A DNA stretch of 64,000 bases from Watersipora subatra (Eukaryota > Bryozoa > Gymnolaemata > Cheilostomatida > Watersiporidae): NCBI RefSeq assembly GCF_963576615.1, contig NC_088715.1, positions 50,322,007 to 50,386,006 of the forward strand, in the 5' to 3' direction. The translations under genes were made by a program, and so were the position numbers. Positions 5,268 through 31,834 of this stretch are shown here, piece after piece. The notes beneath the pieces were generated by a model. It had not been told where the DNA came from. It saw only the letters and a list, made by a program, of their open reading frames with translations, and ran no database searches. Position 1 is the stretch's first letter, and each line of letters starts with the position of its first letter.

Positions 5268-8200
5268 ATGACTCGATTTGCTCAGATCATATGCGCCTTC
5301 ATCACCGTGTTAGTCGTATCACAAGCAATGACTATCGACTGGAGAGAAAGAGCTAATGCTATACAGAGTAACTACAGAACTTGGGATCCAACTCAATCTG
5401 GATCAGACAATGGAAACACTAATGGTGTTGGTGAGTAGAGTAGTTACACACTATCAGAAGTAGTTATTTTAGCAGAGAGGCAAACAAGAGTTTCTGAACA
5501 CTGCCGGATGAGATTCTGGAGAAATTATAAGCAATATTGAGCATATTAGTAGATGTAGTAGATTACAATTAGCTGGCTTAACAGTTCAAAAGTAAGTTTT
5601 ATCTATCACCTGTAGTTTTGTTGGTTTAATTAATTTAGCAAAAAAGTCATGAACTTTGTCCAAAATAGCTAACTTTAGGTAATATTTTTCCAGGAAACAC
5701 AAGAGGAACTCAGAATGGAAATGGTAACAATGGCGTCTCAAATGGAAATGTCAATGGCAACAAGTAAGAGCTATTTAAACCTTAACTCATTTGTTTTAAA
5801 GTTGCAAATCTGTTCTGCAGAAACAACTAACATGGCTGAAACATTTTACTTATGTTAAATAATTCACTATTATAGCAACACTGGAAGTGGAATTGGTAAT
5901 GTAAATGGAAATGGAAACAATGGAGCAGATAATGGAAATGCTAATGGTAATGGGTAAGTTTTATAACTATTTTTTGCCGTTCAGATTCAGTTATTAAGTT
6001 TACCTCCAGTTCAAGAGTTTCCAAGATTTAAAAGATATATTATTTATTCTAATACTTTTTTAGAAATGATGGCCATGACACCGGTAACAGAAATGGAAAT
6101 TCCAACAATGGTACATACAATGGTAACTTTAATGGAAACCATGATGAGGGAGTTGAGAATGGAAATGAGAATGGCAATGCTAATGCTGGAGATGTCAATG
6201 GAAACAACAATGGTAACATGAACATGGGAGACCTCAATGGAAATGCCAATGGAAATGGTAAGTTATTCTATTATGTTTGACGCGCTTGAAGACCTTAAAG
6301 AAACTAAATAAAAGCAAATATTCACTGTATGTGGAAAGCAAATATTTACTGTATGTAGTTTCATAGCATTTTTATTTAACTAATTTAGGCTATATAAAAC
6401 TTTGGTATTAGTCATTTGCCTATTATTACCAATATATATATATATATAATATAATATATATATATTTTACCAATATTAAAATTTAAAGTATACACTGACT
6501 ATTCATATTGTAATCTAAAACTTTTCTATTTAAAAATACAAATTTCTTTTTAGGTAATGATGGTAAGAACCAGGGTAATACCAATGGAAATGGTAACAAA
6601 GGAGAAGCAAATGGAAATGCTAATGGAAATGAGAACTACGGTGCTGGTAACGGTAACTCCAATGGTAACAGCAACAGTGGAGATCAGAATGGTAACGGTA
6701 ATGGCAATCTAAACAGCGGAGATGAAAATGGCAACTTTAATGGTGTGGAGAACGCAGGAAGTGGAAACGGAAACGACAATGGAAACAGTAAGTATTCATG
6801 TCTTATTAAGGAACTAAGTATTTAAGTAATTTTTTACAAGTTTTAACTTAAAGGTAAAAAAAGTGTTGTTAAAATATTAAGCAAGATTTGATTATGTATT
6901 TGCAGAAAACAATGGAACTAACAATGGTAATGTAAATGGGGATGGAAACATCGGCAACAACAATGGTGTTGAAAATGGAAACAGTAACAACTGTGATGGT
7001 AATGGTAATGCCAATGGACTGTCCAACCTTGGAAATGACAATGGTGGCACCAACGGTAACTCCAATGTAGGATCTTCTAATGGAAACAACAATGGTAACA
7101 GCAACACCGGTAACAACAATGGCCATGACAATGGAAATGGAAACTCTGGAGATGGCAACGGTAATGGAAATGGCTCAAATAACGGTGGAGATGGCAATGG
7201 AGCTGTTAACGGAAATGGGTAAGTCAAAACATATGCATAACTGTATATTTCGTTACTTGAAGGAGCTTGAATTAGGGTTGGAAAGATGTTTAACCACAAG
7301 CGATTAAACATTCTGCTGTAACCTATTTTGTCTATTCTCAGCAACAATGGTGACTCTAATGGCAATGGCAATGGTGGAAATAATGAAGGAAGCTATAACG
7401 GAGTCGCAAATGGAAATAGAAACAGTGGTGACAACAATGGTAATACACAACCCAATTAAAGTCTTGAGCTTTGTATTTGAATGTTAGTCCTCAAAACTCT
7501 TGCAAAATGGTATCTTTAAAAAATTAACAATTAGTGATATTTCAACAGGAAATGGAAATGGAGGTAGCAACATTGGAGATTCTAATGGTTCCAACAGCGG
7601 TAACTCTAACAATGGAGACAGCAATGGTAATGGTGTTGGAAATTCAAACAGTGGAAGCAGCAATGGTCTTACTGTTGGAAATGGCAATTATGGCTCTGAC
7701 AACGGCAATGCTGTTGGCAACAGTGAGTAGAAATTTTCAATGAAACAAGCACTTGATTGGATAAACTGTGTAACCACAGATAATCAACTTTGAGAAAGGT
7801 TTGAAAAAGCTTTGAAACAAATTTTTAATTTTTAGGCAATGCTGGAAATAACAACGGCGTTAATAGTGGTAACAGCAACAGTGGTAACAACAATGGCAAC
7901 AACGGTGGAAACGGTAACAATGGTGAATCTAACGGAGTTGGAAATGGCAATGAAAACTACGGAAACAACAATGGTAATGATATCGGAAATTCAAACACTG
8001 GAAATGGAAATGGTGCTGGAAGCGGTAACAGCAACACTGGCTCAAACAATGGTGGAGAAATTGGAAATGGAAACTCCGGCAATGACAATGGAGTTGGCAA
8101 TGGTAAGTAACAGTGCTATACTGATTAATGGTTAGGTTACAAGTCTTCTCTCTGCTAAAAATGTTTAAGTCATCACCTTGCTATAATTTCATTTTGTTGT

Positions 8201-10766
8201 ACAGGAAATGATAACAATGGCAATGGAAATGGAGGAGTAAATGGAAACAGTAACTCCGGAGATCATAATGGAGGTTTGAATGGAAATGATAACACTGGTA
8301 ACAGCAATGGTGAAATCAACGGTAATGGTAACTACGGAAGCAACAATGGAAATGAGAACGGAAATGAAAATGCAGGAAATGCTAATGGTAAGGAACAATC
8401 ATCAGTTTTGGCATTCACCAATCCAAAAGATTTTTCCACAAAGTATCTCATTTAGTAAATAAGTTAAGATTAGAAGCCCTAACAGAATTTATTCTAAAGA
8501 GAATATCAGAACTGAAACAAAATTAAAACATTTATTTGAAAAGAGTAGTTTTTTTTTGCTGTTTAGCTGTATCTGGCTTTGACTCGACCAACGAATTTAC
8601 TGAAACTTAGCAATTTGTAACAGGTCTCTTGGTCATTTCTGTTGTTTTGCATATAAGGTTGCAATCGGTGCAAAAAGTTTTGACAAATGAAAATGACTGA
8701 CTATGGTAGACATATCCTGTTGTGTTTTACTACTTTCTTTACATAAAGAATAACTGCACTTTTAGTAAATCTATATTAAATTTTTAGGTGTTGGCAATGG
8801 AAATGACAACAATGGGTCAGACAATGGTAACAACAATGGTAATCTCAATGAAGGAAGTCAGAATGGACAAGACAATGGAAACCTCAATGATGGACATAAC
8901 AACGGCCAAACCAACGGTGAGCATTGAATCTTTGAAATTCGAAACGAAGCAGATTATTGAGTTATAGGAGACTTTTAAAACTCTACAGAAGAGAACTCTG
9001 AATTTAAAAGTTGTTTTGAGTTTTACTGCAGCTTATTAAAATGTTGATATATTTTATAGGCAATGAAAACACTGGCAGCGAAAATGGTTTAGATAATGGT
9101 AATGATAACCTTGGCAACAACAATGGTGTTGACAACGGAAATGTAAACGCTGGCAGCGGAAACGGAAGAGAGAGCGGTAATGAAAATATAGGCAGTGGAA
9201 ATGGAGGACAAAATGGCAATGCCAACCAGGGTAGTGACAATGGAGTTGGAAATGGTAAGTCAGAGTGTTATCATTTCCTCTAACAAACCACAATGCTTTA
9301 CAGTTTAAAAATACTTATTTATGTGCTGGCTACTTTGTTTGCAATCTCATAAAGATTTCACTGTTTTAAAGAACGTTATAAATTATTCTTTGTTTTAAAG
9401 GTAACAACAATGAGGGAGATGCAAATGGAGTGTATAATGGAAATGTGAATGATGGCAGCAACAATGGACAAGATAACGGAAATGAAAACATTGGTTCTAA
9501 CAACGGCGCAGGTAAGCAAATGTTTTAACCTTGCATCAGTTTTCTTAAATATCTGCAAATACTTACTTTCATCGCATTGTTACTTGAATGCAAATCTGTC
9601 TTACTTTGGAAAACAAATGGCGTAGTATTAATTCCAAAGCTCAGGCAGAAAATTCAGGTCTCTGTAATTACAAGTGAGAGTAAAGTAAGAGCGTGACGTT
9701 ATGTAAAACATTCAGTGAAAGGCTTTTTTACTGGCTTGTCTTTTAAACAGAAACTGGCAGTTCTAGGATACTACTTTCTCATCAATGTTAAAAGGAATGA
9801 GCTGAAATAGCTAATGCGAGCAACTCTCTAGTGTGAACAACTCTTTTTATAACTCTGCATCTAATATTTTAGGTAACGGAAATGTAAATAATGGAGATGG
9901 TAATGGAGTAGGAAATGGAAACACCAATGATGGACAGAACAATGGAAATGGTGAGTAATAAAAACAAATAATAAAAGCAGAAATATTTTAAAACAATGTT
10001 TGAATAGCTCTACGCTTTTTGCAACATGATGTTCATATTCGTCGTAATCTAATCATTTCTTATTTCTGTAATCTACAGACAATGGAAATGCCAATGAGGG
10101 GTTAAACAATGGCGTTGGAAATGGTAACAACAATGATGGTAATGGTAACGGACAAGGAAATGGAAATGGTAATGTTGGTTCTGGTAATGGTGTCAACAAT
10201 GGAAACGGCAATGTCGGCTCTAACAATGGCAGTGGTAAGTTATCACTATGTGCCTTTCATTATATCTCCACAATATCATTAAGTTTTAGAGCAATCAAGT
10301 GACAGAAATAATTATCAATGGCTTTTGCAGCTATATTTCAAGAATAAGTCCACATAAATAATAATTTCATCAGATAATACGTTTGATAACTCTCTTTAGA
10401 TAGCCATTAGTCTAAAGTTTCATACCTAAACTTTTGGTGAAGGTGTTCTTTTACCAACAAAATCAACTTTTCACATCTAGTATTTCTGTAATAATACGTT
10501 TTATTGTATACAAACGGTAGTAAGTTTTTATTATTATTTATTTGCGCTGGTGTTTGGAGTCCTACTAGTGGCTTACATTCAACTTTATAACAAAACCTAT
10601 TTCTCAGAGCATGTGCTAATGTGTTCTTTACATTTTATTAACAGGAAATGGCAACGGAAACAATGATTCTGGCTCTTCCAGTGGTGGAGTTGTCTCTTAC
10701 ACAGTAGATCCCAACGCATGGAGAAAGTATCTCTCCCAAGGAAGTGGCAGATCAAAATACTGGTAA
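5268..10766 (+). CDS. Secreted Asn/Gly 13-residue-repeat protein, copy A (16 coding exons, 854 aa)
   Basis: Exons: 5268-5430, 5694-5763, 5876-5953, 6064-6257, 6554-6787, 6906-7218, 7342-7439, 7549-7722, 7836-8102, 8205-8387, 8788-8916, 9060-9254, 9401-9511, 9873-9950, 10079-10234, 10645-10766. All introns are GT-AG and the frame is open throughout. Residues 1-20 (MTRFAQIICAFITVLVVSQA) are a signal peptide. Residues 21-54 are the conserved head with WRERANAIQSNYRTWD, and 55-65 an irregular linker. Residues 66-819 are exactly 58 units of NxGxxNGxxNGNx. Residues 820-854 are a Ser/Gly linker plus VDPNAWRKYLSQGSGRSKYW. The only mature-region Cys is C276 (codon 6992-6994), replacing the invariant Gly of repeat 17; B and C keep Gly. 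The start follows a 157-bp 5' UTR intron. I do not recognise the family. Secretion is well supported; a structural, adhesive or surface-coat role is inference. Confidence 0.9.
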
Positions 10767-11168
10767 TAAGCAGTCAAACAGAATTTTTCTCAACGACTCT
10801 TCAGATGGAGGAATAGCTCTCACATAATCAAAAAATTAGAAAAATGTGACCTCAAAGAGACTTTAGGTTTAAAAAACTACTAAATTATTTTATAGGCCAA
10901 AGATTTATTATATTTTTGTAAGCGACAATCTTTGGGGTTATTGTCTCAAGACTTGGTCCTAACTGTTGCTCATCCTTGTCAACACACTGTGTTTTAGTGT
11001 TTAGTTGTGCAAACATGTAAACAAAGCAAAATTATTTTGCTGTCTATTTTCCTGCCAGATTATAATTTATTTAATGTCTTATCTGTTCTATTTTGTTGTG
11101 TTTGAATCAAGTTATGAATTCTGTGTAGGGCAGATATTCTACAGTGAGTGAGCATTCAAATGTGTTTA

Positions 11169-11174
11169 AATAAA
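11169..11174 (+). terminator. Polyadenylation signal of copy A
   Basis: AATAAA about 400 bases after the stop codon. The equivalent AATAAA is present in copy B. A second AATAAA at 11239-11244 is an alternative. Confidence 0.45.
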
Positions 11175-11468
11175 TATATGTTATTTACCGTAATTCACAG
11201 GCATATTTAAATTTGGACAGAAGAAGCTCTTTGGAGTTAATAAATTGGTACCTTCAGTGGCTAAGACATGGTGTGAAAAAGTGAAGCAGGACTAATTGGC
11301 TACTATTTGATGGGAAGTTAATACATCTGTTAAAAGCCATAAAGTTTTCTCAATTATTGCGGTTTCACATTATTGGATCTAACACAAATATAATCACCAG
11401 CTAAAGACGTTTGTAGATGCTTGTAACACTAGTTACCTTTTTTACAAATGAGTTGCCAGTATATAGTT

Positions 11469-12515
11469 CAGTGATTCTTGACCTTTTTTGCCCCATTCCC
11501 ATTTTTCCAAACCTAAAGACAGAAATTACCCCCTCCCAACTCCTTCAAATAATGCACTGCAACTAGATAGGGAACTTTATGTACATATATAACTTATATA
11601 CATATATTTGCATGTATATATGCATTTATTACAGTCATATTTACATGGAATATTAAAAATGGATGAATATTGAAACTCAATTTATCTATCATTGTAAGAC
11701 AGTCAGCAGACTAGTGCGATTTCTGTGTTTGTTTGGAGCTGACCAAAATTTTGATGTTAGGAGTTGTTGTGGATAGAGCACACCGTAGGTCAGCTTCTAC
11801 TTCCAGACGGTTTCTAGATTTGCTCTTTATGGTTAGCATTGCTAAAAATGCTGACTCGCACAGATATGTGGAAGCAAATGGTATGAGCATCTTGAAAGCT
11901 GCCAGGCTTATGTTGGGATACAATCGTTGGGCCTGAACCCAAAAGTGCTCTATTGACAGCTCCTTGAAGTATTCTTTTAATGCAGAGTTGTTTGTAAGCT
12001 CCAAAAGCTCCTCCGGAAGCTGTTCCGGAATCTCATGGACATTGCGCCTGAAAGGGTCGCGGGTCAGGCTCATCAATTGCTCTGTCCTAGGATCTAACTT
12101 TAGAAAGTATCTCTCAAACTCTGCTATCAAGCTATTCAAGTGATGCTTCATGTCGGTTAGCAGAGAAGCGAAAGGAGCTTTCTTGTCAACTAATGAATGC
12201 AGAACTGGAAAGAAAACTCTTACATTTCCAGTAGACAGTCTTTCCACCCAGAGTTTGAGCTTGTCTTTGAATGCATTGATACTATCAGTTACATTCAACA
12301 CACTTCTGTCTCTACCTTGCATCTTTGTGTTCACTTCATTCATTAAACCAAATATGTCAACCAGGTAAGCAAGATGCTGATGGAAGCCTTCCACCTGCAT
12401 TGAAGCCAGTAGTTTGGGTTTGTTATGAGTTTTCAAGCACTCATTGACCTTTTCTTGTAGATTGAAGAAACGGAGAAGCATTTTACTCTTTGAAAACCAT
12501 CAAACTTTGGTAACC
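11469..12515 (-). mobile_element. Truncated Buster/ZBED-like hAT transposon between units A and B
   Basis: The terminus CAGTGATTCTTGACC starts at 11469, right after the target octamer ATATAGTT (11461-11468). A minus-strand transposase fragment follows. The other end is missing: near 12515 the sequence switches to unit B flank at the position equivalent to about 1490. The element was truncated by the rearrangement that made the junction. Confidence 0.75.
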
Positions 12516-12520
12516 TTTTT
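11711..12520 (-). pseudogene. C-terminal part of a hAT (ZBED5/FAM200-like) transposase, broken
   Basis: A minus-strand open frame from 12481 to the stop at 11711 (256 codons) matches the C-terminal half of ZBED5/FAM200-type hAT transposases. It has a FFNLQEKVNECL segment, a helical region (VEGFHQHLAYLVDIFGLMNE) and the hAT dimerisation region around ESAFLAMLTIKSKSRNRL near the C end. The first ATG is not the true start. The frame continues upstream as TKV-stop-WFSKSK, where an Arg CGA has become TGA, then runs out at the truncation near 12515. The N-terminal BED zinc finger and most of the catalytic core are absent, so it is inactive. Confidence 0.8.
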
Positions 12521-12774
12521 TTATGTTACATGTTTGTATAGTCTGTTTTTAGCATATTTATCTTTAGTATTTACTAATTTTTGGTGTTTATTTTGGAATC
12601 AAAAGAGGATTTTGTAGGAACTACATGCAATTAAAACAATTAATATGGATTTCTATGTAAATAATTGATCCAATGTAGAGACAGCCATGGCACCCTCACA
12701 GAAGTAGGTAATGAAGATTATATAACTTTGGATGTAGAGGTTTGACTGTATTTGAATCAGTAAGAACCCAAAAG

Positions 12775-13076
12775 GAAACAACAGTTGTTTACTGGTTAGG
12801 GCATTGACTTTTGATTGATAGGTCAGTAGTTCTACTCGCTTACGAACCATTGGAGTTGCTATGAAGGATGTCCAACTATCATCGCAACTGAGCTAAGCCT
12901 GTATATCGGTGTTGATGAGGGTGGTTAGCAACCATGCAAGACTAAAAACAAAACCTGACAAAGGGCGGAGAAGCTCTTCTGCAAGCTAACAGCCAGCTAG
13001 CTAGTAAGGATGTCGGAAGTAAAAACACCAAACAGGTCAAAACCACTGTCGAAACCTGCCGAGAACAGTCATGTTT
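12775..13076 (+). mobile_element. tRNA-derived SINE (unit B)
   Basis: Equivalent of the element at 1735-2045, with the same A-box-like TGGTTAGGGCA. The B-box has decayed to AGTTCTACTCG. Small deletions lie in the body near 12920 and 13030. Confidence 0.6.
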
Positions 13077-13368
13077 TCAGGAAGTAGGGGAGAACCATGA
13101 ATGCCAGCGGCTTCACAGAATATGCACATACAGAAAGAGAAATACTTAGAAGTTTGAATGAATAACACTTTAAAGTATTAAGCTGCTAAGATTTTAGCAT
13201 GATAGTTTTCTATTTATGTTTGTGGAAAGTTTATAAGCCAATGAACTTTTTGTTTAGCTTTGACAAGCACCAAAATATGAAACTCTAGTGAATTAAATTT
13301 TGATTTTGTGGTAGCGTTTTCAAAAAAAAATTTATTATTCAACCCACCTATTAGGCTATTACAATCAT

Positions 13369-14199
13369 TAATAGAGTTGCCCCGATTCTAATATCGGAAA
13401 CGGTATCGGTGCCGATACGGGTTTTAAGTATCTGAATCGGTATCGGCCGATCTTTTCTTCAAAAATTGGAAACTTCAGATACTTTTTACAGGTCAACTAT
13501 TTAGCAGAAAACCGTATTTTAGCCTGCTACACTAATAAAAAATCATCAGCTGCAAGTTCTTTCTTTTTACCTAATGAATTCCGAGCCTGTCACACAATCT
13601 ATTTCATGTCTACAACCTAATAAACATCATCACAGCTGAGGAATATTTTGGCTTTAGTCAGGACGTAATCACAAAGTGCGGTATTTCCCAATTACAGCAA
13701 TATGATTTATTGCAGCCAATCACGAACAAAAGAACAATCATGAAAAACAAGATTGCAGTGTAATGTTTCTATTTACTAGCATTACGAAAGTAATTTGAGC
13801 AGCAGATGCATAAAGTTATCTATCTCTCTCTTGATCCTGACTATATGACGTATGGTTTGTATTGCATAAAATAACCTCAGTGGCTTATCGGTATTTAGCC
13901 TGTCCTCCATCATCTGTGGCAAGTGAGTCCTTCTTCAGTACTACTGGTTACATCGATAGTGATAAAAGATAAAGACATCTCACTGAGATAATTGAATGAA
14001 ACGAATAATGGTAATTGGTAATTAAACGAAACTTTTATTTGCTCTAAACAGTACAGGCGCAGCAGTTCGTTCAGCAGTAGAAAAAAGACTTAATTATCAC
14101 AGATAAAGCTGTACTACTAACAGTAATTCCATTATTAATAACAGATTTCAAGGACCACGGACTGTTTTGTTACTAGATGCTTGGTATGGCAGTATGTGA

Positions 14200-14249
<50 letters not shown>

Positions 14250-14448
14250 CTTTTTTCCATAAATACAAACAAATAATACATCAATATTTACATTTTCTTT
14301 GCATTATATTTACATAATAAAATTAAAAATTATCTATGCAACCCAAAAGATTTGATTCGGTATCTGAGTCGTATTACTTTTCAATGAGAATCGGTATATC
14401 GAATCAGTATCTGAATCGGCTGGTGAAATTAGAGTCGGGGCATCCTCT
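13369..14448. mobile_element. Nonautonomous hAT-type element (MITE), unit B copy
   Basis: Same insertion as 2713-3749, carried by the segmental duplication: identical target duplication ACAATCAT at 13361-13368 and 14449-14456, and the same TIRs. It is longer because a TA microsatellite inside it has expanded to about 40 bases (14203-14245). Confidence 0.75.
14203..14245. repeat. TA microsatellite
   Basis: About 20 TA dinucleotides inside the MITE of unit B. Unit A has only about five TA at the matching site (3536-3546). Shorter TA tracts lie at 6433-6468 and 23495-23548. Confidence 0.9.
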
Positions 14449-15972: not shown

Positions 15973-18900
15973 ATGGCTCGATTTGCTCAGATCATATGCG
16001 CCTTCATCACCGTGTTAGTCGTATCACAAGCAATGACTATCGACTGGAGAGAAAGAGCTAATGCTATACAGAGTAACTACAGAACTTGGGATCAAACTCA
16101 ATCTGGATCAGACAATGGAAACACTAATGGTGTTGGTGAGTAGAGTAGTTACACACCATCAGAAGTAGTTATTTTAGCAGAGAGGCAAACAAGAGTTCCT
16201 GAACATTATTTGATGAGAATCTGGAGAAATTATAAGCAATATTGAGCATATTGGTAGATGTAGTAGATTACAATTAGCTGGCTTAACAGTTCAAAAGTAA
16301 GTTTTATCTATCACCTGTAGTTTTTTTGGTTTAATTAATTTAGCAAAAAAGTCATGAACTTTGTCCAAAATAGCTAACTTTAGGTAATATTTTTCCAGGA
16401 AACACAAGAGGAACTCAGAATGGAAATGGTAACAATGGCGTCTCAAATGGAAATGTCAATGGCAACAAGTAAGAGCTATTTAAATCTTAATTCATATGTT
16501 TTAAAGTTGCAAATCTGTTCTGCAAAAACATGTAACATGGCTGAAACCTTTTACTTATGTTAAATAATTTTCTATTATAGCAACACTGGAAGTGGAGTTG
16601 GTAATGTAAATGGAAATGGAAACAATGGAGCAGATAATGGAAATGCTAATGGTAATGGGTAAGTTTTATAAACTTTATTTGCCGTTCAGATTCAGTCATT
16701 AAGTTTACCTCCAGCTCAAGCGTTATCAAGATTTAAAATAGATGTTACTTATTCCAATACTTTTTTAGAAATGATGGCCATGACACCGGTAACAGAAATG
16801 GAAATTCCAACAATGGTACATACAATGGTAACTTCAATGGAAACCATGATGAGGGAGTTGAGAATGGTAATGAGAATGGCAATGCTAATGCTGGAGATGT
16901 CAATGGAAACAACAATGGGAACATGAACATGGGAGACCTCAATGGAAATGCTAATGGAAATGGTAAATATCTTCTATTATGTTTCGCACGCTTAAAGACA
17001 TTGAGAAAACACTAAATAAAAGCAAAAATCTACTGTATGTGAAAAGCATGGTTTCATAGTTTTTTTATTTAACTAATTTTGGCTATCTAGAACTTTGGTA
17101 TTAGACATTATCAATATTAAAATTAAGAGTACGTACTGGCTATTCACATAATGTTCTTAAACTTTTCTATCTATTCAAAAATATAAAAAATTTTTCAGGT
17201 AATGATGGCAAGAACCAGGGTAATACAAATGGAAATGGTAACAAAGGAAACGCAAATGGAAATGCTAATGGAAATGAGAACTACGGTGCTGGCAACGGTA
17301 ACTCCAATGGTAACAGCAACAGTGGAGATCAGAATGGTAACGGTAATGGCAACCTAAACAGCGGAGATGAAAATGGCAACTTTAATGGGGTAGAGAACGC
17401 AGGAAGTGGAAATGGAAACGACAACGGAAACAGTAAGTATTCACAATTTATTAAGAAATGGAAACTAAGTATTTAAGTAATTTTTTACAAGTTTTAACTT
17501 AGAGGTAAAAAAAGTTTTGTTAAAATATTAAGCAAGATTTGATTATGTATTTGCAGAAAACAATGGAACTAGCAATGGTAATGTAAATGGAGATGGAAAC
17601 ATGGGCAATGACAATGGTGTTGAAAATGGAAACAGCAACAACGGTGATGGTAATGGTAATGCCAATGGACTGTCTAACCTTGGAAATGACAATGGTGGCA
17701 CCAACGGTAACTCCAATGTAGGATCTTCTAATGGAAACAACAATGGTAACAGCAACACCGGTAACAACAATGGCCATGACAATGGAAATGGAAACTCTGG
17801 AGATGGCAACGGTAATGGAAATGGCTCAAATAACGGTGGAGATGGCAATGGAGCTGTTAACGGAAATGGGTAAGTCAAAACATATGTATAACTGTATATT
17901 TCATTACTTAAAAAAACTTGAATTTTTGTTGGAAAAATGTTTAACTACAAGCGATTAAACAATCTGCTGTAACTTATTTTGGTTAATTTTAGCAACAATG
18001 GTGATTCTAATGGCAATGGCAATGGTGGAAATAATGAAGGAAGCTATAACGGAGTCGCAAACGGAAATGGAAACAGTGGTGACAACAATGGTAAGACACA
18101 CCCCAATTAAAGTCTTGAACTTTGTACTTGAATGCTAGTCCTCAAAACTCTTGCAAAATGGTATCTTTAAAATTAACAGTTAGTGATATTTCAACAGGAA
18201 ATGGAAATGGAGGTAGCAACATTGGAGACTCTAATGGTTCCAACAGCGGTAACTCTAACAATGGAGACAGCAATGGAAATGGTGTTGGAAATTCAAACAG
18301 TGGAAGCAGCAATGGTCTTACTGTTGGAAATGGCAATTATGGCTCTGACAATGGCAATGCTGTTGGCAACAGTGAGTAGAAATTTTCAATGAAACAAGCA
18401 CTTGATTGGATAAACTGCGTAACCACAGATAACTGACTGCTGTCTCCAAAAGGTTTGAAAAAAATTTGTAAATTTTAGGCAATGCTGGAAGTAACAATGG
18501 CATTAATAGTGGTAACAGCAACAGTGGTAACAACAATGGCAACAACGGTGGAAACAGTAACAATGGGGAATCTAACGGAGTTGGAAATGGCAATGAAAAC
18601 TCTGGAAACAACAATGGTAATGATATTGGAAATTCCAACACTGGAAATGGAAATGGTGCTGGAAGCGGTAACAGCAACACTGGCTCAAACAATGGTGGAG
18701 AAAATGGAAATGGAAACTCCGGCAATGACAATGGAGTTGGCAACGGTAAGTAACAGTGTTATACTGATTAATGGTTAGGTTACAAGTTTTACCGCTGCTA
18801 AAAAAATTTAAGTTCTTACTTTGCTATAATTTTGTTTTGTTGTACAGGAAATGATAACAATGGCAATGGAAATGGAGGAGTAAATGGAAACAGCAACTCC

Positions 18901-21411
18901 GGAGATCATAATGGAGGTTTGAATGGAAATGATAACACTGGTAACAGCAATGGTGAAATCAACGGTAATGGTAATTACGGAAGCAACAATGGAAATGAGA
19001 ATGGAAATGAAAATGCAGGAAATGCTAATGGTAAGGAACTATCATCAGTTTCGGCATTCACAAAGCCAAAAGATTTTTCCACAAAGTATCTATTTTAGTA
19101 AATAAGTTAAGATTAGAAGCATTAACAGAATCTTAGTCCTATTTATTTTAAAGAGCTTTGTATATACGAGCTGAAACAAGATTAAAACATATTTTTGCAA
19201 AGAGTAATTATTTTTTGTTCTTTGCTGTATCTGGCTTTAACTTGACCAAAAAATTTACTCGAATTTACTAAAGAAATCTAGAGATTTGTAACAAGTCTCT
19301 TTGTTGTTTCTCTTGGATTTGCACATAAGGTTGCAATCTGTACAAAAATGTTTTGACAAATGAAAGTGGCTGACTATTGTAGACATATCCTGTTGCGTTT
19401 GACTACCTTAAATAATATGAATAATAACTGCACTATTTTTAAATCTATATTAACTTTTTAGGTGTCGGCAATGGAAATGACAACAATGGGTCAGACAACG
19501 GTAACAACAATGGAAACCTCAATGAAGGAAGTCAGAATGGACAAGACAATGGAAACTTCAATGATGGACATAACAATGGTCAAGCCAACGGTGAGCATTA
19601 AATCAATGAAATTCGAAAAAAGTGGAGTATTGAGTTATATGAATTTTTCAAAACTCTAGAGAAAAGAACTCTGAATTTAAACGTTGCTTTGAGTTTTACT
19701 GCAGCTTATTAAAATGTTGATATATTTTATAGGCAATGAAAACACTGGCAGCGAAAATGGTTTAGGTAATGGTAATGACAACCTTGGCAACAACAATGGT
19801 GTTGAAAACGGAAACGTAAACGCTGGCAGCGGAAATGGAAGAGAGAACGGTAATGAAAATATTGGCAGTGGAAATGGAGGACAAAATGGCAACGCCAACC
19901 AGGGTAGTGACAATGGAGTTAGAAATGGTAAGTCAGAATGTTATCATCTCCTCTAACAAACCACAATGTTTTACAGTTTAAAAATACTTATTTATGTGCT
20001 GGCTACTTTGTTTTCAACCTCATAAAGATTTCATTCTTTTAAAGGTAACAATAATGAGGGAGATGCCAATGGAGTGTATAATGGAAACGTGAATAATGGC
20101 AGCAACAATGGGCAGGATAACGGAAATGAAAACATCGGTTCTAACAACGGCGCAGGTAAGCAAATGTTTCATCTTTGCACCAATTTGCTTAAATTTTTGC
20201 AAATACTTTCTTCGCACTGATATTTTGAATGCAAATCTGTCTCGCTTTGAAAAACAATCAGCGTAGTATTAATCCAAAACCTCAGGCAGAAAATTCAGGT
20301 GCTCTGTAATTACAAGTAAGAGTTAAGTAAGAGCATGGCGTTATGAAAAGTGTTCAGTCATAGGCTTGTACTATCTTGTCTTTTAAAGCAGAAACTGGCA
20401 CAATTCTAAGGTCCTACTTTCTCATCAATGTAAAAAGGAATGAGCTGAAGTAGCTAATGTGAGCAACTCTCTAGTGTGAACAACTCTTTTTATAACTCTT
20501 TACATCTAATATTTTAGGTAACGGAAATGTAAACAATGGAGATGGTAATGGAGTAGGAAATGGAAACACCAATGATGGACAGAACAATGGAAATGGTAAG
20601 TAGTAAAAACAATTAATAAAAGCAGAAATAATGTAAAATAATGGTTGGACAGCTCTGTGTTTTTCATAAAATGATGTTCCTATTCATCATAATCTAACCA
20701 TTTTTTGTTTCTGTAATCTACAGACAATGGAAATGCCAATGAAGGGTCAAACAATGGTGTCGGAAATGGTAACAACAATGATGGCAATGGTAACGGACAA
20801 GGAAATGGAAATGGTAATGTTGGTTTTGGTAACGGTGTCAACAACGGAAATGGCAATGTTGGCTCCAACAATGGCAGTGGTAAGTTATCACTATGTGCCT
20901 TTCATTATATCTACAAAATATCATTTAATTCTAGAGCGATCAAGTGACAGCATTAATTAGCAACGCCTTTTGCAGGAATGATTGGAGAATGATTCGGCAT
21001 AAATATCAATTTCATCAGATAATCTGCTTGAAAATTCTCTTTAGATAGTCACTAGCTTAAGTTTTCACACCTAAACTTTTGGGAGAATGTTCTTTTATCT
21101 ACAAACGCAACTTTTCATATCTAGTATTTCTGTAATATTATATTTTACTGTATACAAATGGTAGTAAGTTTCTTATTATTATTTATTTGCGCTGAGGTTT
21201 GGAGTCCTACTAGTGGCTTACATTCAACTTTATAACAAAACCTATTTCTCAGAGCATGTAATAATGTGTTCTTTGCATTCTATTAACAGGAAATGGCAAC
21301 GGAAACAATGATTCTGGTTCTTCCAGTGGTGGAGCTGTCTCTTACACAGTAGATCCCAACGCATGGAGAAAGTATCTCTCCCAAGGAAGTGGCAGATCAA
21401 ATTACTGGTAA
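15973..21411 (+). CDS. Secreted Asn/Gly 13-residue-repeat protein, copy B (16 coding exons, 854 aa)
   Basis: Exons: 15973-16135, 16399-16468, 16581-16658, 16769-16962, 17199-17432, 17557-17869, 17993-18090, 18198-18371, 18479-18745, 18848-19030, 19462-19590, 19733-19927, 20045-20155, 20518-20595, 20724-20879, 21290-21411. Every exon matches the length of its copy A partner and all splice sites are GT-AG. The signal peptide is MARFAQIICAFITVLVVSQA. The 58 repeats and the tail VDPNAWRKYLSQGSGRSNYW are intact, and the mature region is cysteine-free. One notable replacement is Gly to Arg at residue 698 (repeat 49). Near-identity to copy A extends through introns, so this is a recent tandem duplicate or a pair homogenised by gene conversion. 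Function unknown, as for copy A. Confidence 0.9.
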
Positions 21412-21819: not shown

Positions 21820-23104
21820 TATATGTTATTTACCGTAATTCACAGGCATATTTAAATATGGACAGAAGAAGCTCTTTAGAGTTAATAAATTGGTACGTTG
21901 AGTGGCTAAGACACTGTGTCAAAAAGTGAAGCAAGACTACTTTGGCTCCTATTTGATGGGAAGGTAATGCATCTGTTAAAAGCCATAAAGTTTTCTCAAT
22001 TATTGCGGTTTCACATTATTGGATCTAAAACAAATATGATCACCAGCTAAAGACATTTGCAGATGCTTGTAACACTAGTTACCTTTTTTACAAATGAGTT
22101 GCCAGTATATAGTTTAATGACCTTTTACCACCTTTGAATGTATAAACATCAACCAACACAAAATACAAAGAGATAGAAAAACTCATAAGAAATTCCTGAT
22201 TCATCTTTCAAGGTGTTACCAAAGACTTTTCGAACAGCTGTTTTTGCCATTTGATGGTATACTATCCCTTTATATTTTTATAATACAACTTAAATTTTTA
22301 AAATTGGTTAGCACAATAATTTAAAAAGACAGTAGGTAAAATGCAGACATCTATAGTACCAAAATTCAAACTCATTCATTTAATCTTTTTTTATTATTTA
22401 CACTCTTAAAAAATTAAAAATTTGCAACAGTAGACATGTGTGCTTAATCAAAAGGTATGTGGAGTTTATTTGGGATGCATCTTTATATAATTTTAAACAA
22501 GGGTTACACATTTATGTGTGTCAGAAATCCTGCAATGAGCAGCTTCTACAGATATACATAATGATACTGTTATGGTGATATACAAACAATCTTTGACATG
22601 CAAAGTCAATTGATTCCATTATTTGTTATTTGTGTTCAAACTATCATGCGTTGTAAAAAACGTTTTTATAAGAAATTGTGTATTAAGTTTAGTTTATCCT
22701 AAAAAGTGATAAACAATGTTGAAATTAATTATGATTTAATAGAGCATAATAATTGGTATGTGAAACAAATAAAAAAAACTAAATCATATGTAAATGAAAT
22801 AATTAAAAAAGTATTCCTCAGTAAAATGTTTCACCCTTACTTTATTTAACAAACGTGTAAACAGAAGTGCAGGCTCATCAATAATTGTAATTGGGTACAA
22901 TTTTATAGCCTTTCAAAACTTCACCAGCTTAGTGAAGGTCAACATCTAGGGATTAGCTATAGTGATGGGAGATGTAAACGCGAATGTTAAAGCTAGTAGA
23001 ATGATAGAATTTGGATTGTGACCCTAACCTGTCAATAACCTATCAATAACCTATCAATAAACAGCTAACTTTTTAAAATAAAACATGGTTTAGAAGTATA
23101 AATT

Positions 23105-23990
23105 ATTTACTTACTTTAAAAATAAAATATTTAACCCTTTCTATATTGGATTTCTTAGTAACAAATAAATTAAAATTGAAGGTTTTCATAATCACATAAT
23201 GGTTAACACGAAAGATTCTGCTAAAACCTTCAACTCTAAAGTTTACATATATTAAAATACAGAAGCTAGCGAAATTCTTAAGAATGTTTATATTTACAGA
23301 TCCTGAAACACACAGGTTTTCCATTTTACGGTGCAAATTATGAGTAAATATTGGATTCTACTTCACCAATGGTAATTTTGAAAATACAGCATTCAAATTT
23401 TTTTCTGAAAAAAATGATGCAAAAGTGTTTAAGAAGTGTTTAATCTAAAAATAAAAGCTACAAAAAGTATTAAAATTTTAATACTTTAGTATTAAAATAT
23501 TATATTATATTATATATATATAATATATTATATATATATATATATTATAGTAGTTTTAATGTGATTAATGTGATTAATGTAGTTTGAATAATAAAAAGCC
23601 CGTATTTAACCCTTTCTATATTTGATTTCTTAGTAGCAAGCAAATTAAAATTGAAGTTTATCATAATGGTTAACATGAAAGGTTCTAATAAAATCTTTAA
23701 TTTTAAAACTTACATCTATTAAAATGCTGAAGCTAGCAAAATCCTAATAAATATTTATATTTACACGTGCTGAAACATGCAGGTTTTCTATTAAACGGTG
23801 AAAATTGTGAGTAAATATTGGGCTCTACTTTATCAAGCGTAACTTTGAAAATACAACATTCAATTTTTTTATGAAAAAATTAGTGAGCCAAAAAAGTCTG
23901 AAGTGTTCATGGTAAAACTGAAAGCTACAAAAAGTATTAAAATAAGGTGATTAATGTAGTTTGAATTCTGCTTGGTGTAAGTTAGAGCAG
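23105..23990 (+). repeat. Internal tandem duplication of about 475 bp in the third unit
   Basis: Two successive copies start at TTAACCCTTTCTATATT (23131 and 23606). They continue in parallel through a CAGGTTTTC-type segment (about 23310 and 23780). The corresponding part of unit A (about 960-1190) is single. AT-rich sequence and a TA run (23495-23548) separate the copies. Confidence 0.7.
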
Positions 23991-24376
23991 CTTATGCTGT
24001 GTATCCTTATCACCATATCTGTTTATGTACTCTCTACGTTTATGACTTACAAATTCTGCACCTCCTCTCTATTGATTTAAGACAACGTGGCAATGTAACC
24101 CGACTTTATGGATGACTTTTCTAGGTTACGCGTTTGTTTAGCCTGTTTTTTAAGATACTTATCTTTAGTATTTACTAATTTTGGGTATTTATTTTGGAAT
24201 TAGCAAAGAATTTTTGCAGAAACTACATGCAATTAAAACAATTACTATGTATTTCTATTTAAATAATTGATCCACTGTACAGACAGCCATGACACCCTCA
24301 TGGAAGTAGGTAATGGAGTTTATATAACTTTGAATGTGAAAGTTTGACTGCATTTGAATCAGTATATACCTAAAAG

Positions 24377-24675
24377 GGAGCAGCCGTTGTTTACTGGTAA
24401 GGACAATGACTTTTGATTGATAGGTCAGTGATTCCAGTCGCTTGCGGATAGTTGGAGGTGCTAAGAAAAGCATCCAACTATCATCGCAACTGAGCTAAGC
24501 CTGTATATCGGTGTTGATGAGAATGGGTAGCTAGCAGCCATGCAAGACTAAAAACAAAACCTGACAAAGGGTGGAGAAGCTCTTCTGCAAGCTAACAGCC
24601 AGCTAGCTAGCTAAAGATCTCGTCTCAAAGCACCAAACAGAAAGCACTGTTAAAACCTGCCGAGAACAGTCATGG
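24377..24675 (+). mobile_element. tRNA-derived SINE (third unit)
   Basis: Same element in the third unit. The tRNA-like head is more diverged (TGGTAAGGACA; B-box GATTCCAGTCG), in line with the greater overall divergence of this unit. Confidence 0.55.
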
Positions 24676-25984
24676 TTGTAGGAAGTAGGAGAGAACCATG
24701 ATTGCCAATGTGTTCACAGGACATGGTGCTTACAAAGAGAAATACTCAAAAGTTTGAGTGAATAACACATTTACTCATTCAACTAAAATTGTAGCTATAT
24801 ACTTTTTCAGATAAATTTTCTGTTTAGCAGGAAACTTTTAAATTTTTTACAACTGTTGAAACCTTTTACTTATTTTAACAAATTATTAAGTAAATATATA
24901 AATCAATAAGCTCCCAAGAATTTTAAAGTCGGTGGTACTTGAGCATATGCCTATTCTTTTTTAAGGTGTTTAATGCAGCAAAATCGGTGAATTAAATATT
25001 ATTGCTTCAAATAATTTGCTGCAAAAGCCATATATTATATAAAAATAGAATGTGGTTTGCTCATAAAAATTGTTTACAATCTATATGTATGTATTTTGGG
25101 TTGAGCGCAAAGGAAGAGGGAGTAAAACTTGTTAACTTTTGAGTTTTGAAGAAAAATGATTGTTTTTAAATTTACAATTAAGTTCAACAAAATAATGATT
25201 AAATTTTTGAAGAAGGTTTATATGCCCAGGAATTTTTTGTTCAACTTTAACAAGGACTAAAATATGAAACTCGAGTGAATTGAATTTTGTTTTTTCGGAA
25301 GCGTTTGCTTAAGAAATTTTATTATTTAAACCACCTATTCTCCATTACAATCAAAGTATCAAATTATAATCCAGTATTTAACTAAATTGTATGCAAAATT
25401 TTATCTTAGATTATGGGAATTCTGTAAATACCCACTAATGGAACAATCTAGAACTATTACAAAGTTTTTTAGTATTATCATTGAGACAGGAGCCTGAATA
25501 TTTTTAGATGAGAGTTTTTTATAAAGTTTAGCTGTATTTGCCGTTAAACACAGTTTTGCACAATACTGTGCTACTAAGTTATGTTCAAAGTGCACTCTTT
25601 CAAAAGTTAGGCTTAACACAAAATCCTTTTTAATAATACTCAACCGTAATAATAAATTAAAACAAGTTAAACATAACATTTGTGGTCAATTAAAGCACTT
25701 GTATGATTGTAGTTAAAAATCCAGTCAGCGATGATCAGCAGTCAAAATGAATATGCAGTGGTATCATTTGTTTAACTGTATTTGCACAAGAAATAAAAAC
25801 AATTTTTCTCTCTCATATAGATTAGAAAGCTTGAAAGAACATAAACAATATAAATGTGTTTTTTTCATAAATTTTATTACAGATTTGGCGGTATAAAAGG
25901 AGATTGTCCAGTATGATCACTATGTAGCTGACAAAACACAACTGGGCTTTCTTAAATTAAAACAAATAGGACAAATTAAAGCTA

Positions 25985-26169: not shown

Positions 26170-29100
26170 TTACCAGTAATTTGTTCTGCTACTTCCTTGA
26201 GAGAGATACTTTCTCCAGGCGTTGGGATCAACTGTGTAAGAGACAGCTCCACCGCTGGAAGAACCTGAATCGTTGTTTCCATTGCCATTTCCTGTAAAAA
26301 AACACAAATAATTAATACAATTAACACCTTTAACAAGTAGCATGATGACTTTGTCATTCTAGCATATTGAAGATGTTATCAATTTTTAGAAAAAAAAATA
26401 GATTCAAATTTAAATCAATTTCAGTCAAAAAACAACTGTAAAGTCTAAAATCAGTAAATTGGTAGCAAACTTCCAATTTTGGAGTTTGTTGATCTCAGAT
26501 AAAGCTTTGTTAAAATTGAATAAAATAAAGCTTGCTAGTTATAAAAATGATATTTTATAAAACTGGTTTATTCCCTAGCGATTTCAGAAAAGAAGGTCTT
26601 GTTTGATAGCTTACCACTGCCATTGTTGGAACCAACGTTGCCATTTCCGTTGTTGACACCGTTACCAGTGCCAACATTTCCGTTTCCATTTCCTTGTCCG
26701 TTACCATTACCAGCATTGTTGTTACCATTTCCGACACCATTATTTGACCCTTCATTGGCATTTCCATTGTCTGTAGATTAAAAAAAGAAGAAAATTGAAA
26801 CCATGGTAAATAGGAACATGGACTTGAGAAAAGCACAAACTTAGCAACGTTTTCAAAGTTTTTTTGCTCTAACAAGTTTTTGATTACTCACCATTTCCAT
26901 TGTTCTGCCCATCATTGTTATTACCATTTCCTACTCCATTACCATCTCCATTGTTTACATTTCCGTTGCCTAAAATAAAAATAGCAATGTAAAAATAATA
27001 ATTTTCAAATTTGAATTTTTGAATCCACTCTTAGTTCCTAAATACATCTTTGTAGCGTTTTCTCAATATGTTGCACTATGGTAGGTTCCATACAAATATG
27101 CTACATAGATATATCTTCATTGCTACAAATGACTCAAGCGAGTTAAAAGCTAATAACTGAATGCTTTAAGCAAAGTCAGGTAAAAGTATAACATGAAATA
27201 GCTCCTTACCTGCACCATTGTTAGAACCAATGTTTTCATTTCCGTTATCTTGTCCATTATTGCTGCCATCATTTACATTTCCATTATATACTCCATTGCC
27301 ATCTCCTTCGTTGTTGTTACCTGTAAAGGAAAGAATAGGTTATAAGATTGAAAACATACTACAACTTTATAAAAATAGAAAATTGCATATTATTATGAAA
27401 GCCTGTGACAAACACAAGTTCTCCAATATCCACTTACCATTTCCAACTCCGTTGTTGTTTCCAAGGTTAGCATTGCCATTCTCTCCTCCATTGTTGCTGC
27501 CAATGTTTTGGTTTCCATTTTCTCCTCCATTTCCGCTTCCAACGTTTACATTTCCGTTGTCAACACCATTGTTGTTTCCAAGGTTATTGTTACCATTATC
27601 TACACCGTTGCCATTTCCAGTGTTGTCATTTCCTATAAAAATACAGATATCAAAATTAAATTGGGAAAAAATAGGTAAAAACCAACATAGAGTTTTTGCT
27701 AGTAGTTTTGCTGATATTAACTGGTTGACTGAAACCTTTTCATACAGATTACTCACCATTATCTAGCCCATTTTTGTTTCCATCATTGATGTTTCCATTG
27801 TCCTGTCCGTTACCATTGCCTTCGTTAAAGTTACCATTGTTGCCACCATTGTCTGAGCCATTGTTGTCATTTCCATTGCCAACACCTATGAAACATTAAC
27901 AGAAATAATGATAACGGGATAACTTGTAATACCATTTCAAATGAAATAACAATAGATCATCTAAATTTAAGGTTTGAAAAGTAGTTGATTGTTTTTGTTT
28001 TCTCTTTTTCATATACTTAAAATGTATATTTTATCGCATTGTAAATTTAATTATAGAAGGAAACCATGAGTTAAGGTTCAAATTCACAATTGATGGACCG
28101 TGTTAAAAATTAGTTTTTGAAAAATCAAAAAACCTACTGTATTGGATGTTATTTCAGTCTTCTAATATGAGCCACTTCAAATGAGCTTCCCATAAAGGCT
28201 GACCAAAAATAATCGATGTTGTAGATTTTGAAAGCTACTTCTATAGATTATTACATTTTTTGTGAATTTTATTATGTAATGTTTTATGGTATTCACGCTT
28301 CATGAAATCCAGATGCTAACTCCTTACCATTAGCATCTCCTGCATTTCCATTTCCGTTCTCATTTCCATTGTTGCTTCCGTAGTTACCATTACCGTTGAT
28401 TTCACCATTGCTGTTACCAGTGTTATCATTTCCATTCAAACCTCCATTATAGTTTCCAGAGTTGCTGTTTCCATTGATTCCTCCATTTCCATTTCCACTG
28501 TTTCCATTTCCTACAAAAAATACATAGCAATACTGACTAACTGGTAATATGATTATTAATTTGTAATAACACCTTCTGCATAACTTGCTGGAAACAGATT
28601 CCTTCCTTCTCTCTCTCACTCTATATTTCTCTCGCAGTCAATCAGTCAACCTTTTCGATAATGGCTTTCTTATGTTCCAGGCTTTATCACTGACTTCCAG
28701 ATTTATTATTATGGTTCAAACTTACCATTAGCAACTCCATTGCTATTGCCAGAGTTTCCATTTCCATTTTCTCCACCATTGTTGGAGCCAGTGTTGCTGT
28801 TACCGCTTCCTGCACCATTTCCATTTCCACTGTTGGAATTTCCAATATCATTACCATTGTTGTTTCCGTTATTTTTGTTGCCATTTCCAACTCCGTTAGA
28901 ATCACCACTGTTGCTGTTTCCACCGTTGTTGCCATTGTTGTTACCGCTGTTGCTGTTACCGCTATCAACACCGTTGTTGCTTCCGGCATTGTCTGCAATT
29001 TAAACATAGCTGTCTAATATCAAGCCAGAAACCATATCAGTGAGTTGTGATAGTTATCATATTGACTAAACAAACACAACTGTCAAATATTTGCTTACAA

Positions 29101-31834
29101 TTTTCAACTGCAAGGTAAATGAAATACACGCAAATAAACAGACAGTTGTCATATGATGGGGTACTTACTGTTTCCAACAAAATTTCCATTGTCAGAGCCA
29201 CTGTTTCCATTTCCCGCTGTCACACCATTGCCGCTGCCACTGTTTGAATTTCCAACATTATTCCCATTACCACTTCCACTGTTGGAGTTACCACTGTTGG
29301 CGCCATTAGAATCGCCAATGTTGCTACCTCCATTTCCGTTTCCTGTCGCAATTGAAAATGAAAAACGTTATTTTAAAAACAGCATTCCCTATTTCAGTTT
29401 ACCATCAAAAATAGCTTATTGAGTTTTATCTATGCTGAGAAAGAGGAATCGCCACTCTTACCATTGTAGTCACCGCTGTTGCCATTTCCATTTGACCTTC
29501 CATTTTGATTTCCTTCGTTGTTCCCTCCGTTATTACTTCCATTAGCATCACCGTTGTTGCTGAAACCAATAGATAACATCATTTAAATTGCAATGAAAGT
29601 GTGTCACACTTTTCACTACTACAGTTATCACCAACAAAAGCATTGTTCAATTAAAGAATTTGACAGTCAAAAAATCATCATAAATCTATTGGTATTGACT
29701 CACCTATTTCCGTTAATGGCGCCATTGCCATCTCCACCATTGTTTGAACCATTTCCATTGCCATTGCCATCTCCAGAGTTTCCATTTCCATTGTCATGGC
29801 CATTGTTGTTACCAGTGTTGCTGTTACCATTGTTGTTTCCATTAGAAGATCCTACATTGGAGTTACCGTTGGTGCCACCATTGTCATTTCCAAGGTTGGA
29901 CAGTCCATTGGCATTACCATTGCCGTCACCGTTGTTGCTGTTTCCATTTCCAACACCATTGTTGTTGCCAATGTTTCCATCTCCATTTACATTACCATTG
30001 CTAGTTCCATTGTTTTCTGCACAAAAATGCAAAATATTATAAAGTTTAAATAGCATAAAATAGTAATTCCATAAATATGTTTAGTAATTTTACAATACTG
30101 ATAGCAAAAACCTAATTTCTGTCTCATGGAGTACTTACTGTTTCCGTTGTTGTTTCCATTTCCACTTCCTGAGTTTTCCAGTCCATTAAAGTTGCCATTT
30201 TCATCTCCTCTGTTTAGGTTACCATTACTATTACCATTCTGATCTCCACTGTTGCTGTTACCATTGGAGTTACCATTACCAGCTCCAAAGTTTTCATTTC
30301 CATTAGCGTTGCCATTTGCGTCTCCCTTGTTGCCATTTCCATTGGTATTGCCCTGGTTTTTGCCATCATTCCCTAAAGCCGGAAAGGTTATTTCACAATG
30401 CTGTGGTACAGACTGACACAGCAGTATATTGCTATGCATGTTTTTCATAGTTTCATCATAGACTCAGATACCAAAGTGCAATAATTTGCATTATTCAAAT
30501 GATGATACTCATGTCCGACTCAATATAACTCATTAGCAGTTCAAATCGGTACATTTATGATTCAGAGAACCCATCAAGTAGCCAATAACGTCATAAAATA
30601 TTTTAAACAGTTCCAAAGCTAAAAAAAAATAAGGATTTGTCTTTTAAGCATAAGATAAGATTAATTTTTATATTATGTTGACAAAAACTATAAAATCGTT
30701 AAAGTCGTAACTTCAAAAATTTGTTTGGCTATCAGCCAGGTTACGATTAGGAATTTTTTTGTTCTGTACTGCTAAAAAAATCTGTTTAGCATTTCACAAT
30801 ATGTTCAATCATTAATAGAAGATACTTACCATTTCCATTGGCATTTCCATTGAGGTCTCCCATGTTCATGTTACCATTGTTGTTTCCATTGACATCTCCA
30901 GCATTAGCATTGCCATTCTCATTTCCATTCTCAACTCCCTCATCATGGTTTCCATTGAAGTTACCATTGTATGTACCATTGTTGGAATTTCCATTTCTGT
31001 TACCGGTGTCATGGCCATTATTTCTAAAGAAATATTAGAGTAATTAAATCTTATATCATATTTATATCTTATATATTATATATAGGTGTCTTGGTGATGG
31101 TAAGAATGATAACTGATGATGAATTATAAATGAACTTTGTAAAACTTACCCATTACCATTAACGTTTCCATTATCTGCTCCATTGTTTCCATTTCCGTTT
31201 ACATTACCAATTCCACTTCCAGTATTGCTGTAATAGTGAATTATTTAACATAAGTGAAAGTTTTCAGCCATGTTACTTGTTTTTGCAAAACAGATTCACA
31301 ACTTTAAAACATATGAGTTAAGATTTATATAGCTCTTACTTGTTGCCATTGACATTTCCATTTGAGACGCCATTGTTACCATTTCCATTCTGAGTTCCTC
31401 TTGTGTTTCCTGGAAAAATATGTTAATAAATTAGTTTCTTTTAATAAATTCTATGACTCTATTGCAAATTAATTAAAATGATAAAGCTACAGCTAATGGG
31501 CAACACTTACATTTGAACTGTTAAGACAAATAGTTGTAACCTACTACATCTATCAATATGCTCAATATTGTTTATAATTTCTACAGAACCTCATCAGACA
31601 ATGTTCACGAACCCTTGGTTGCCTCTCAGCTAAAGTAACTACTTCTGATGGTGTGTAACTACTCTACTCACCAACACCATTATTGTTTCCATTGTCTGAT
31701 CCAGATTGAGTTGGATCCCAAGCTCTGTAGTTATTCTGTATAGCATCAGCTCTTTCTCTCCAGTTGATATTCATTGCTTGTGATACGACTAACACGGTGG
31801 TAAGGGCGCATATAATATGAGCAAATCGAGCCAT
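26170..31834 (-). CDS. Secreted Asn/Gly 13-residue-repeat protein, copy C (inverted, 16 coding exons, 854 aa)
   Basis: Exons in order of transcription: 31834-31672, 31409-31340, 31227-31150, 31023-30830, 30372-30139, 30016-29704, 29559-29462, 29342-29169, 28992-28726, 28510-28328, 27885-27757, 27632-27438, 27320-27210, 26969-26892, 26770-26615, 26291-26170. All splice sites are GT-AG and every length equals that of A and B. Introns and the variable x positions of the repeats have diverged, but the register of 58 repeats is unbroken. Signal peptide MARFAHIICALTTVLVVSQA; head WRERADAIQNNYRAWD; tail VDPNAWRKYLSQGSSRTNYW. No Cys is seen in the mature repeats. It lies tail to tail with copy B. Its 3' flank differs from A and B and no AATAAA is evident close by. 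Probably functional: open frame, intact splice sites, conserved promoter. Confidence 0.88.

Follow-up and report, generated by a model that had tools for sequence, protein, structure and literature searches.

For a window of 64,000 nucleotides of the bryozoan Watersipora subatra (contig NC_088715.1, positions 50,322,007 to 50,386,006), by which we mean the whole stretch of DNA analysed, we found a gene family of three copies (A, B and C), each encoding 854 amino acids in 16 coding exons whose lengths are identical across the copies. In all three products residues 66-819 fall into 58 consecutive 13-residue units without a gap, built on a ladder of Asn and Gly (N1 G3 N6 G7 N10 G11 N12, the remaining positions being called x). 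Judged from their sequence, A, B and C are a real and unusual gene family, and we hypothesise that they encode a secreted, register-locked Asn/Gly-ladder rod that serves as extracellular matrix, maybe in a calcified cuticle, a proposal held tentatively and with slightly less than even confidence. We put it forward because the register is constant, the ladder is under selection and the same unit recurs across kingdoms. The first-pass annotation of this DNA had described the 58 unbroken 13-mers and the 16 coding exons, and both descriptions hold in A, B and C, which lie as follows.

Copy A, 5268..10766, plus strand: 854 amino acids, residues 66-819 being 58 x 13.
Copy A exons 1-8, plus strand: 5268-5430, 5694-5763, 5876-5953, 6064-6257, 6554-6787, 6906-7218, 7342-7439, 7549-7722.
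Copy A exons 9-16, plus strand: 7836-8102, 8205-8387, 8788-8916, 9060-9254, 9401-9511, 9873-9950, 10079-10234, 10645-10766.
Copy B, 15973..21411, plus strand: exon lengths as in copy A, 829 of 854 residues identical to A.
Copy B exons 1-8, plus strand: 15973-16135, 16399-16468, 16581-16658, 16769-16962, 17199-17432, 17557-17869, 17993-18090, 18198-18371.
Copy B exons 9-16, plus strand: 18479-18745, 18848-19030, 19462-19590, 19733-19927, 20045-20155, 20518-20595, 20724-20879, 21290-21411.
Copy C (inverted), 26170..31834, minus strand: exon lengths as in copy A, 760 of 854 residues identical to A.
Copy C exons 1-8 (5' to 3'), minus strand: 31672-31834, 31340-31409, 31150-31227, 30830-31023, 30139-30372, 29704-30016, 29462-29559, 29169-29342.
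Copy C exons 9-16 (5' to 3'), minus strand: 28726-28992, 28328-28510, 27757-27885, 27438-27632, 27210-27320, 26892-26969, 26615-26770, 26170-26291.

The exon models were made with a dynamic-programming exon finder that takes in splice sites, reading frame and amino-acid composition, the 13-residue register not being one of its inputs; the first and last exons, which are not repetitive, were wrongly cut up by it and were set back to single exons in A, B and C. GT-AG splice sites were found at all 45 introns of the three copies, and 6 of the 14 introns inside the array fall at repeat position 13. Constraint on the Gly and Asn positions, claimed from the first inspection, was borne out in copy A, where 385 of 406 ladder positions carry the expected residue, as against a maximum of 177 over 2000 shuffles, each read in all 13 registers. 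Per 58 units the counts are N1 57, G3 57, N6 55, G7 58, N10 48, G11 58 and N12 52, and the 21 exceptions include one Cys at a Gly position. Among periods 2-30 the autocorrelation of this copy is highest at 26 (0.60) and 13 (0.58), with 0.24 at 5 and 0.11 at 3. All 58 of its units, which are the ones that we counted, are distinct at both the protein and the DNA level (mean pairwise DNA identity 0.59), so the array is old and no recent expansion. The near absence of Cys, Trp and Pro was likewise borne out, with no Trp in the array of any copy, no Pro in the units inspected and the single Cys already mentioned. Furthermore, the arrays are strongly acidic, with 64, 62 and 54 Asp plus Glu versus 6, 6 and 8 Lys plus Arg in A, B and C, a net charge (the first sum minus the second) of about -46 to -58.

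Comparison of the copies supports strong purifying selection on the 13-residue register and its ladder. Residue identity is 829/854 between A and B, 760/854 between A and C and 762/854 between B and C, and the ratio of nonsynonymous to synonymous divergence (dN/dS) is 0.11-0.15 overall, 0.008-0.03 at ladder positions and 0.19-0.27 at x positions. Exon 1 is an exception, with 2 synonymous versus 10 replacement changes between A and C. Across the 2565 bases of coding sequence there is no length change in any pair of copies. Over 2821 aligned intron bases A and B show 327 substitutions, a rate similar to the dS of 0.117, together with 26 indels, and introns and synonymous sites are concordant in this pair. 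The introns of A and C are too diverged for indel counting. Introns 4-13 and 15 of that pair align at only 43-57 percent (a figure for which the chance level was not computed), and synonymous divergence averages a dS of 0.37, with raw proportions of 0.25 in exon 9 and 0.15 in exon 10; from the sequences, this mismatch between introns and synonymous sites could possibly reflect gene conversion limited to exons, or constraint on synonymous sites.

The claim that no described family has this repeat stands in so far as copy A matched none of the Pfam families up to E=1 and no Protein Data Bank (PDB) chain at E<=0.001, a profile of the window's exons also matching no PDB chain at E<=10. It does not extend to the 13-mer itself, and the notion that nothing else has a 13-residue period has to be given up, the identical unit being present in bacterial, fungal and algal proteins. 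A protein search with copy A gave at least six matches (P0001-P0006) among the best 7966 candidates by common words, and the unit NxGxxNGNxNGNx is common to alphaproteobacterial, fungal (Geosiphon), algal (Coccomyxa) and metagenome proteins. Consecutive units in the ladder register number 10 in each of the metagenome proteins P0001-P0003, 13 in G9A89_006378 of Geosiphon pyriformis (P0004) and 8 in g2897 of Coccomyxa elongata (P0006), and in the tiled stretches of these five proteins the strongest period is 13 or 26. The sixth match, a contig protein of Cichorium endivia (P0005) with runs of 2-4 units, is perhaps a contaminant. In P0004, Lys-Arg pairs stand between the arrays of Asn-Gly (NG), resembling those of processed fungal precursors.

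Far more arrays came from a search of a genome collection with a DNA pattern of one and a half units, which gave at least 119 stretches there and 3 in viral contigs. Arrays of 5-15 units were found in 103 of 163 open reading frames (ORFs) and at 87 of 122 loci, that is, at 84 of the 119 genome loci and in the 3 viral contigs. Going by their titles and by the class to which each genus belongs, we take the 84 genome loci to be Alphaproteobacteria, mostly Hyphomicrobiales, bar one titled only Proteobacteria. The remaining 35 are mixed: some are alphaproteobacterial arrays that are short or cut off (among them L005, L013 and L114), and others, among them L010 and L034, are single matches in other places that look like simple low complexity, although the 35 were not each examined. 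A unit profile was built from the 809 units of the 103 ORFs, excluding the 35 of 122 loci without an array by our cut-off and 60 of the 163 ORFs, and its ladder frequencies are N1 0.95, G3 0.98, N6 0.95, G7 1.0, N10 1.0, G11 1.0 and N12 0.98. Scored relative to the composition of copy A, the profile gives copy A +2.72 per unit in register 0 and -11.1 in the next best register. The x residues differ from those of copy A, being more hydrophobic at 5 of the 6 x positions (at position 4 the hydropathy averages +1.47 for the fetched units and -1.99 for copy A). Since the ladder agrees and the x positions differ, this would be one backbone with different surfaces, reached by descent or by convergence, and the agreement of the profile is not proof of common descent.

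Known models had little to say about these proteins. Pfam matched just one of P0001-P0006, namely P0004, with two families that both scored under the cut-off and lay outside the repeat, one of them an F-box, and none of 8 bacterial array proteins matched Pfam. Among 8 proteins compared with NCBIfam, a set that did not include copy A, only P0001 scored, for a VPLPA-CTERM signal at 23.5 bits versus a cut-off of 25.35. The profile of bacterial units met two lysozyme chains in the PDB (E 0.11 and 0.83), which we took as chance. Among the proteins tested, the 13-residue unit is one without a Pfam or NCBIfam repeat model, and in open-licence PubMed Central, covered by titles and the openings of abstracts, we found no paper on the repeat, which does not imply its absence from print. 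More interesting than uniqueness, in our view, is that an Asn/Gly unit of 13 residues for which there is no model occurs in an animal as well as in bacteria, a fungus and an alga. Its spread hints at a rod-like building material that has so far been overlooked.

Several observations at the fetched loci can be added. Three loci of Labrys (L058, L051, L086) have three NG-array ORFs each, and several others have two, the second often with a tail containing STSGN- or SSTSGN-. In protein mode L085 had no match among phage and plasmid records, a result made uninformative by the low-complexity filter being on. DNA of L018 matched 22 plasmid records, and the two inspected carry simple low-complexity NG rather than the 13-mer. 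Clustering of neighbour genes gave nothing usable, antisense ORFs dominating.

The ends of the window proteins are not repetitive. By eye, the N-terminus of A, B and C has a hydrophobic core followed by SQA, and the first 20 residues are signal peptide-like, so that the proteins look secreted; the early picture of a secreted protein family with an unbroken register agrees with what we found, namely three copies with a secreted-looking start and a fixed register under purifying selection. Upstream of exon 1, a BLAST (Basic Local Alignment Search Tool) comparison of A and C gave only one common block, 4911-5057 versus 32201-32046 (72 percent over 156 aligned columns), and a TATAAG sits inside it. 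The features concerned are these.

Copy A exon 1, 5268..5430, plus strand: putative signal peptide (residues 1-20, judged by eye) and Trp/Arg head.
Copy A exon 16, 10645..10766, plus strand: final repeat residues and Trp/Tyr/basic tail, stop codon TAA.
TATAAG, presumed TATA box: 4950..4955 on the plus strand in A, 15655-15660 on the plus strand in B, 32162-32157 on the minus strand in C.
Presumed 5' untranslated region (5'-UTR) intron of copy A, 5110..5266, plus strand: donor GTAAGT (5110), acceptor AG ending a single base upstream of the ATG.

We hypothesise a solenoid in which every coil takes up 13 residues and the chain makes 58 coils; Gly at 3, 7 and 11 would permit tight corners, Asn at 1, 6, 10 and 12 would stack from coil to coil as side-chain ladders, and the x positions would form the solvent surface, acidic in this animal. 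The Trp/Arg head and the Trp/Tyr/basic tail might cap or cross-link the rod, whose acidic surface would let it bind either calcium or a carbonate mineral, or else pack into calcified cuticle. Shell and mucus, among the roles suggested at first, lean towards molluscs, and this DNA is bryozoan. The solenoid idea fits the pattern of constraint, and a folded rod that depends on its register is what we consider probable. A role in cuticle or mineral is a good deal more doubtful; what makes it plausible is an acidic array in a probably calcifying animal together with the analogy to the NG domains of nacrein and N66. More broadly, the 13-mer could be an unrecognised fold, a minimal three-cornered solenoid that is held by Asn side-chain ladders and has hardly any hydrophobic core. 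Alphaproteobacteria, a fungus, a green alga and a bryozoan would each have adopted it, independently or by transfer, as a material for building outside the cell, and in the bryozoan it would have reached 58 coils, equal in three copies. Towards this possibility we remain rather reserved.

Several points weigh against a folded, register-dependent rod. The array has few hydrophobic residues for a core. A coarse backbone search, in which lower energy is better, did not favour the real N/G order, with a mean best energy of -7.9 (6 runs, -5.0 to -10.0) versus -9.2 for 18 permuted orders (-5.9 to -13.9); 12 of the 18 nevertheless score worse than the best of the real runs (-9.97), and the 13-residue coils were roughly closed for real and permuted orders alike. 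The period of the bacterial arrays is in part a product of how they were retrieved, namely with a 13-residue pattern: a template-free analysis of NG-rich ORF tails gave 13 as the best period in 109 of 131, at loci picked with that same pattern, and control searches of the viral contigs at other periods (0 contigs at 12; 3 contigs and 12 matches at 13; 3 contigs and 3 matches at 14) are too few to weigh much. Finally, the constancy of coding length says less than it might. Since 3 of the 26 indels between the introns of A and B are divisible by three, about 2.7 in-frame coding indels would be expected by our own arithmetic, and finding none is weak evidence (about 0.07), suggestive but not strong, that register or unit number is guarded.

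That last point also bears on a different reading, which we regard as unlikely, namely that the protein is a disordered, deamidating matrix without a defined fold. NG is the fastest-deamidating residue pair and each chain holds some 140 of them (140 in A, 144 in B, 142 in C), which after secretion would turn into Asp or isoAsp, so that the chains would form a sticky gel whose acidity grows, or act as a molecular timer. Thread matrix proteins of mussels are reportedly called hyperunstable on account of NG deamidation. The lack of in-frame indels counters such a matrix only weakly. A disordered gel should however tolerate shifts by single residues, yet all 58 units keep register in all three copies and ladder dN/dS is near zero, and the repeat given for mussel TMP-1 in a passage of PMC6474901 is a different one.

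The presence of the unit in many alphaproteobacteria could also mean that a bacterial NG-array gene was transferred horizontally and gained its introns later, and some bryozoans do harbour bacterial symbionts, as stated in part of PMC9825505. We consider this improbable, given that the gene has a presumed 5'-UTR intron besides its 16 coding exons, that its 58 units have diverged and carry x residues of another kind, and that the head region, searched alone (the tail was not), gave 7 candidates and no protein match at E <= 10. Repeats of such low complexity say little about descent in a tree, which leaves convergence just as possible as transfer.

A solenoid binding ice or another crystal face would also be regular, secreted-looking and encoded in several copies, and ryegrass antifreeze protein is said to work with Asn ladders. 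This seems very improbable: by eye the x positions form no flat Thr/Val face, the PDB searches gave no chain of similar sequence, and Watersipora are warm-temperate fouling animals. Just as remote is a shell protein of the nacrein/N66 type that has kept the NG domain of a carbonic anhydrase and lost the enzyme, for which NG richness, acidity and a probable calcifying lophotrochozoan would speak; against it, copy A matched no carbonic anhydrase and does not repeat with a period of three (autocorrelation 0.11 at 3, compared with 0.58 at 13). That low-complexity composition betrays a sequence artefact or a pseudogene is scarcely credible in view of three intact copies, GT-AG at 45 of 45 introns and purifying selection.

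If the Asn/Gly unit does fold as a rod, three Gly and four Asn per thirteen residues would be a very simple rule for making long, rigid rods that do without a hydrophobic core. It would then offer a template for materials design and a folding question on all-amide cores. Many bacterial proteins that look secreted and lack annotation would gain a name, and a matrix protein of bryozoans would become accessible to study.

Copies A and B lie within a tandem duplication (3001-11474 and 13657-22120) whose flanks agree at 93-94 percent, and sequence like their upstream flank (3749-4375) recurs on the plus strand at 25346-25966, adjoining the 3' end of the inverted copy C, as if C were a third tandem unit with an inverted gene. 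Close to each copy stands a dispersed repeat, at 950-2711, 12517-13367 and 23128-25353, about 80-84 percent related. A ZBED5/FAM200-like transposase ORF at 11714-12499 on the minus strand has up to 91 percent identity to other copies in Watersipora subatra: 33 of its 57 matches at E <= 1e-30 are from this species, 26 of the 33 at 74-91 percent identity, and the best match outside it is at 52 percent, so that this one mobile element points, indirectly, to a Watersipora or a closely related cheilostome bryozoan. At 47191-49904 on the plus strand, several adjacent open frames look like a disrupted gene of transposon type whose C-terminus is rich in Cys. There are also tandem arrays, namely a trinucleotide-like ACT tract (37130-37428), a 47-base unit x4 (42673-42865), a 27-base unit x7 (43553-43745) and a 42-base unit x5 (33096-33304).

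The window family shares features with several known systems. Mussel TMP-1 is likewise a secreted matrix repeat containing Gly and Asn, and its Tyr-rich consensus GYGYGNYGYGY, given in a section of PMC6474901, differs from a family with only 11, 10 and 9 Tyr per 854 residues in A, B and C, which sets mussel thread matrix proteins aside as relatives. The NG domains of nacrein and N66 (Gly-Xaa-Asn), described in parts of PMC6599672 and PMC3439604 as interacting with CaCO3, are acidic, Asn/Gly-rich, extracellular and from calcifying lophotrochozoans. Theirs is a tripeptide repeat joined to carbonic anhydrase, unlike the window family, and the missing Pfam match and weak period 3 of copy A speak against membership; that the arrays of A-C act on mineral in a similar way is plausible as an analogy. 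The Pentapeptide-2/MPTR family (PF01469) also has Asn/Gly repeats in long arrays of secreted proteins, with NxGxGNxG in mycobacterial PPE MPTR proteins according to a passage in PMC7028111 and XNXGX in Pentapeptide-2, whose structure part of PMC4858275 stated to be unknown in 2016. Its period is 5 versus 13 here, and membership was rejected, copy A having no profile match and an autocorrelation of 0.24 at 5 versus 0.58 at 13. P0001-P0006 differ from copies A-C in having fewer units, joined to other sequence. The alphaproteobacterial proteins, such as L085:2005-2427 from an Afipia metagenome-assembled genome, are unlike copy A in their 5-10 units (94 of 103), their mostly more hydrophobic x residues and an Asn at position 8 with frequency 0.94, and those inspected have no Trp head or tail; like copies A-C, they run as NxGxxNGNxNGNx in the same register, and by an ad hoc rule 52 of the array ORFs combine a signal-like N-terminus with adequate length.

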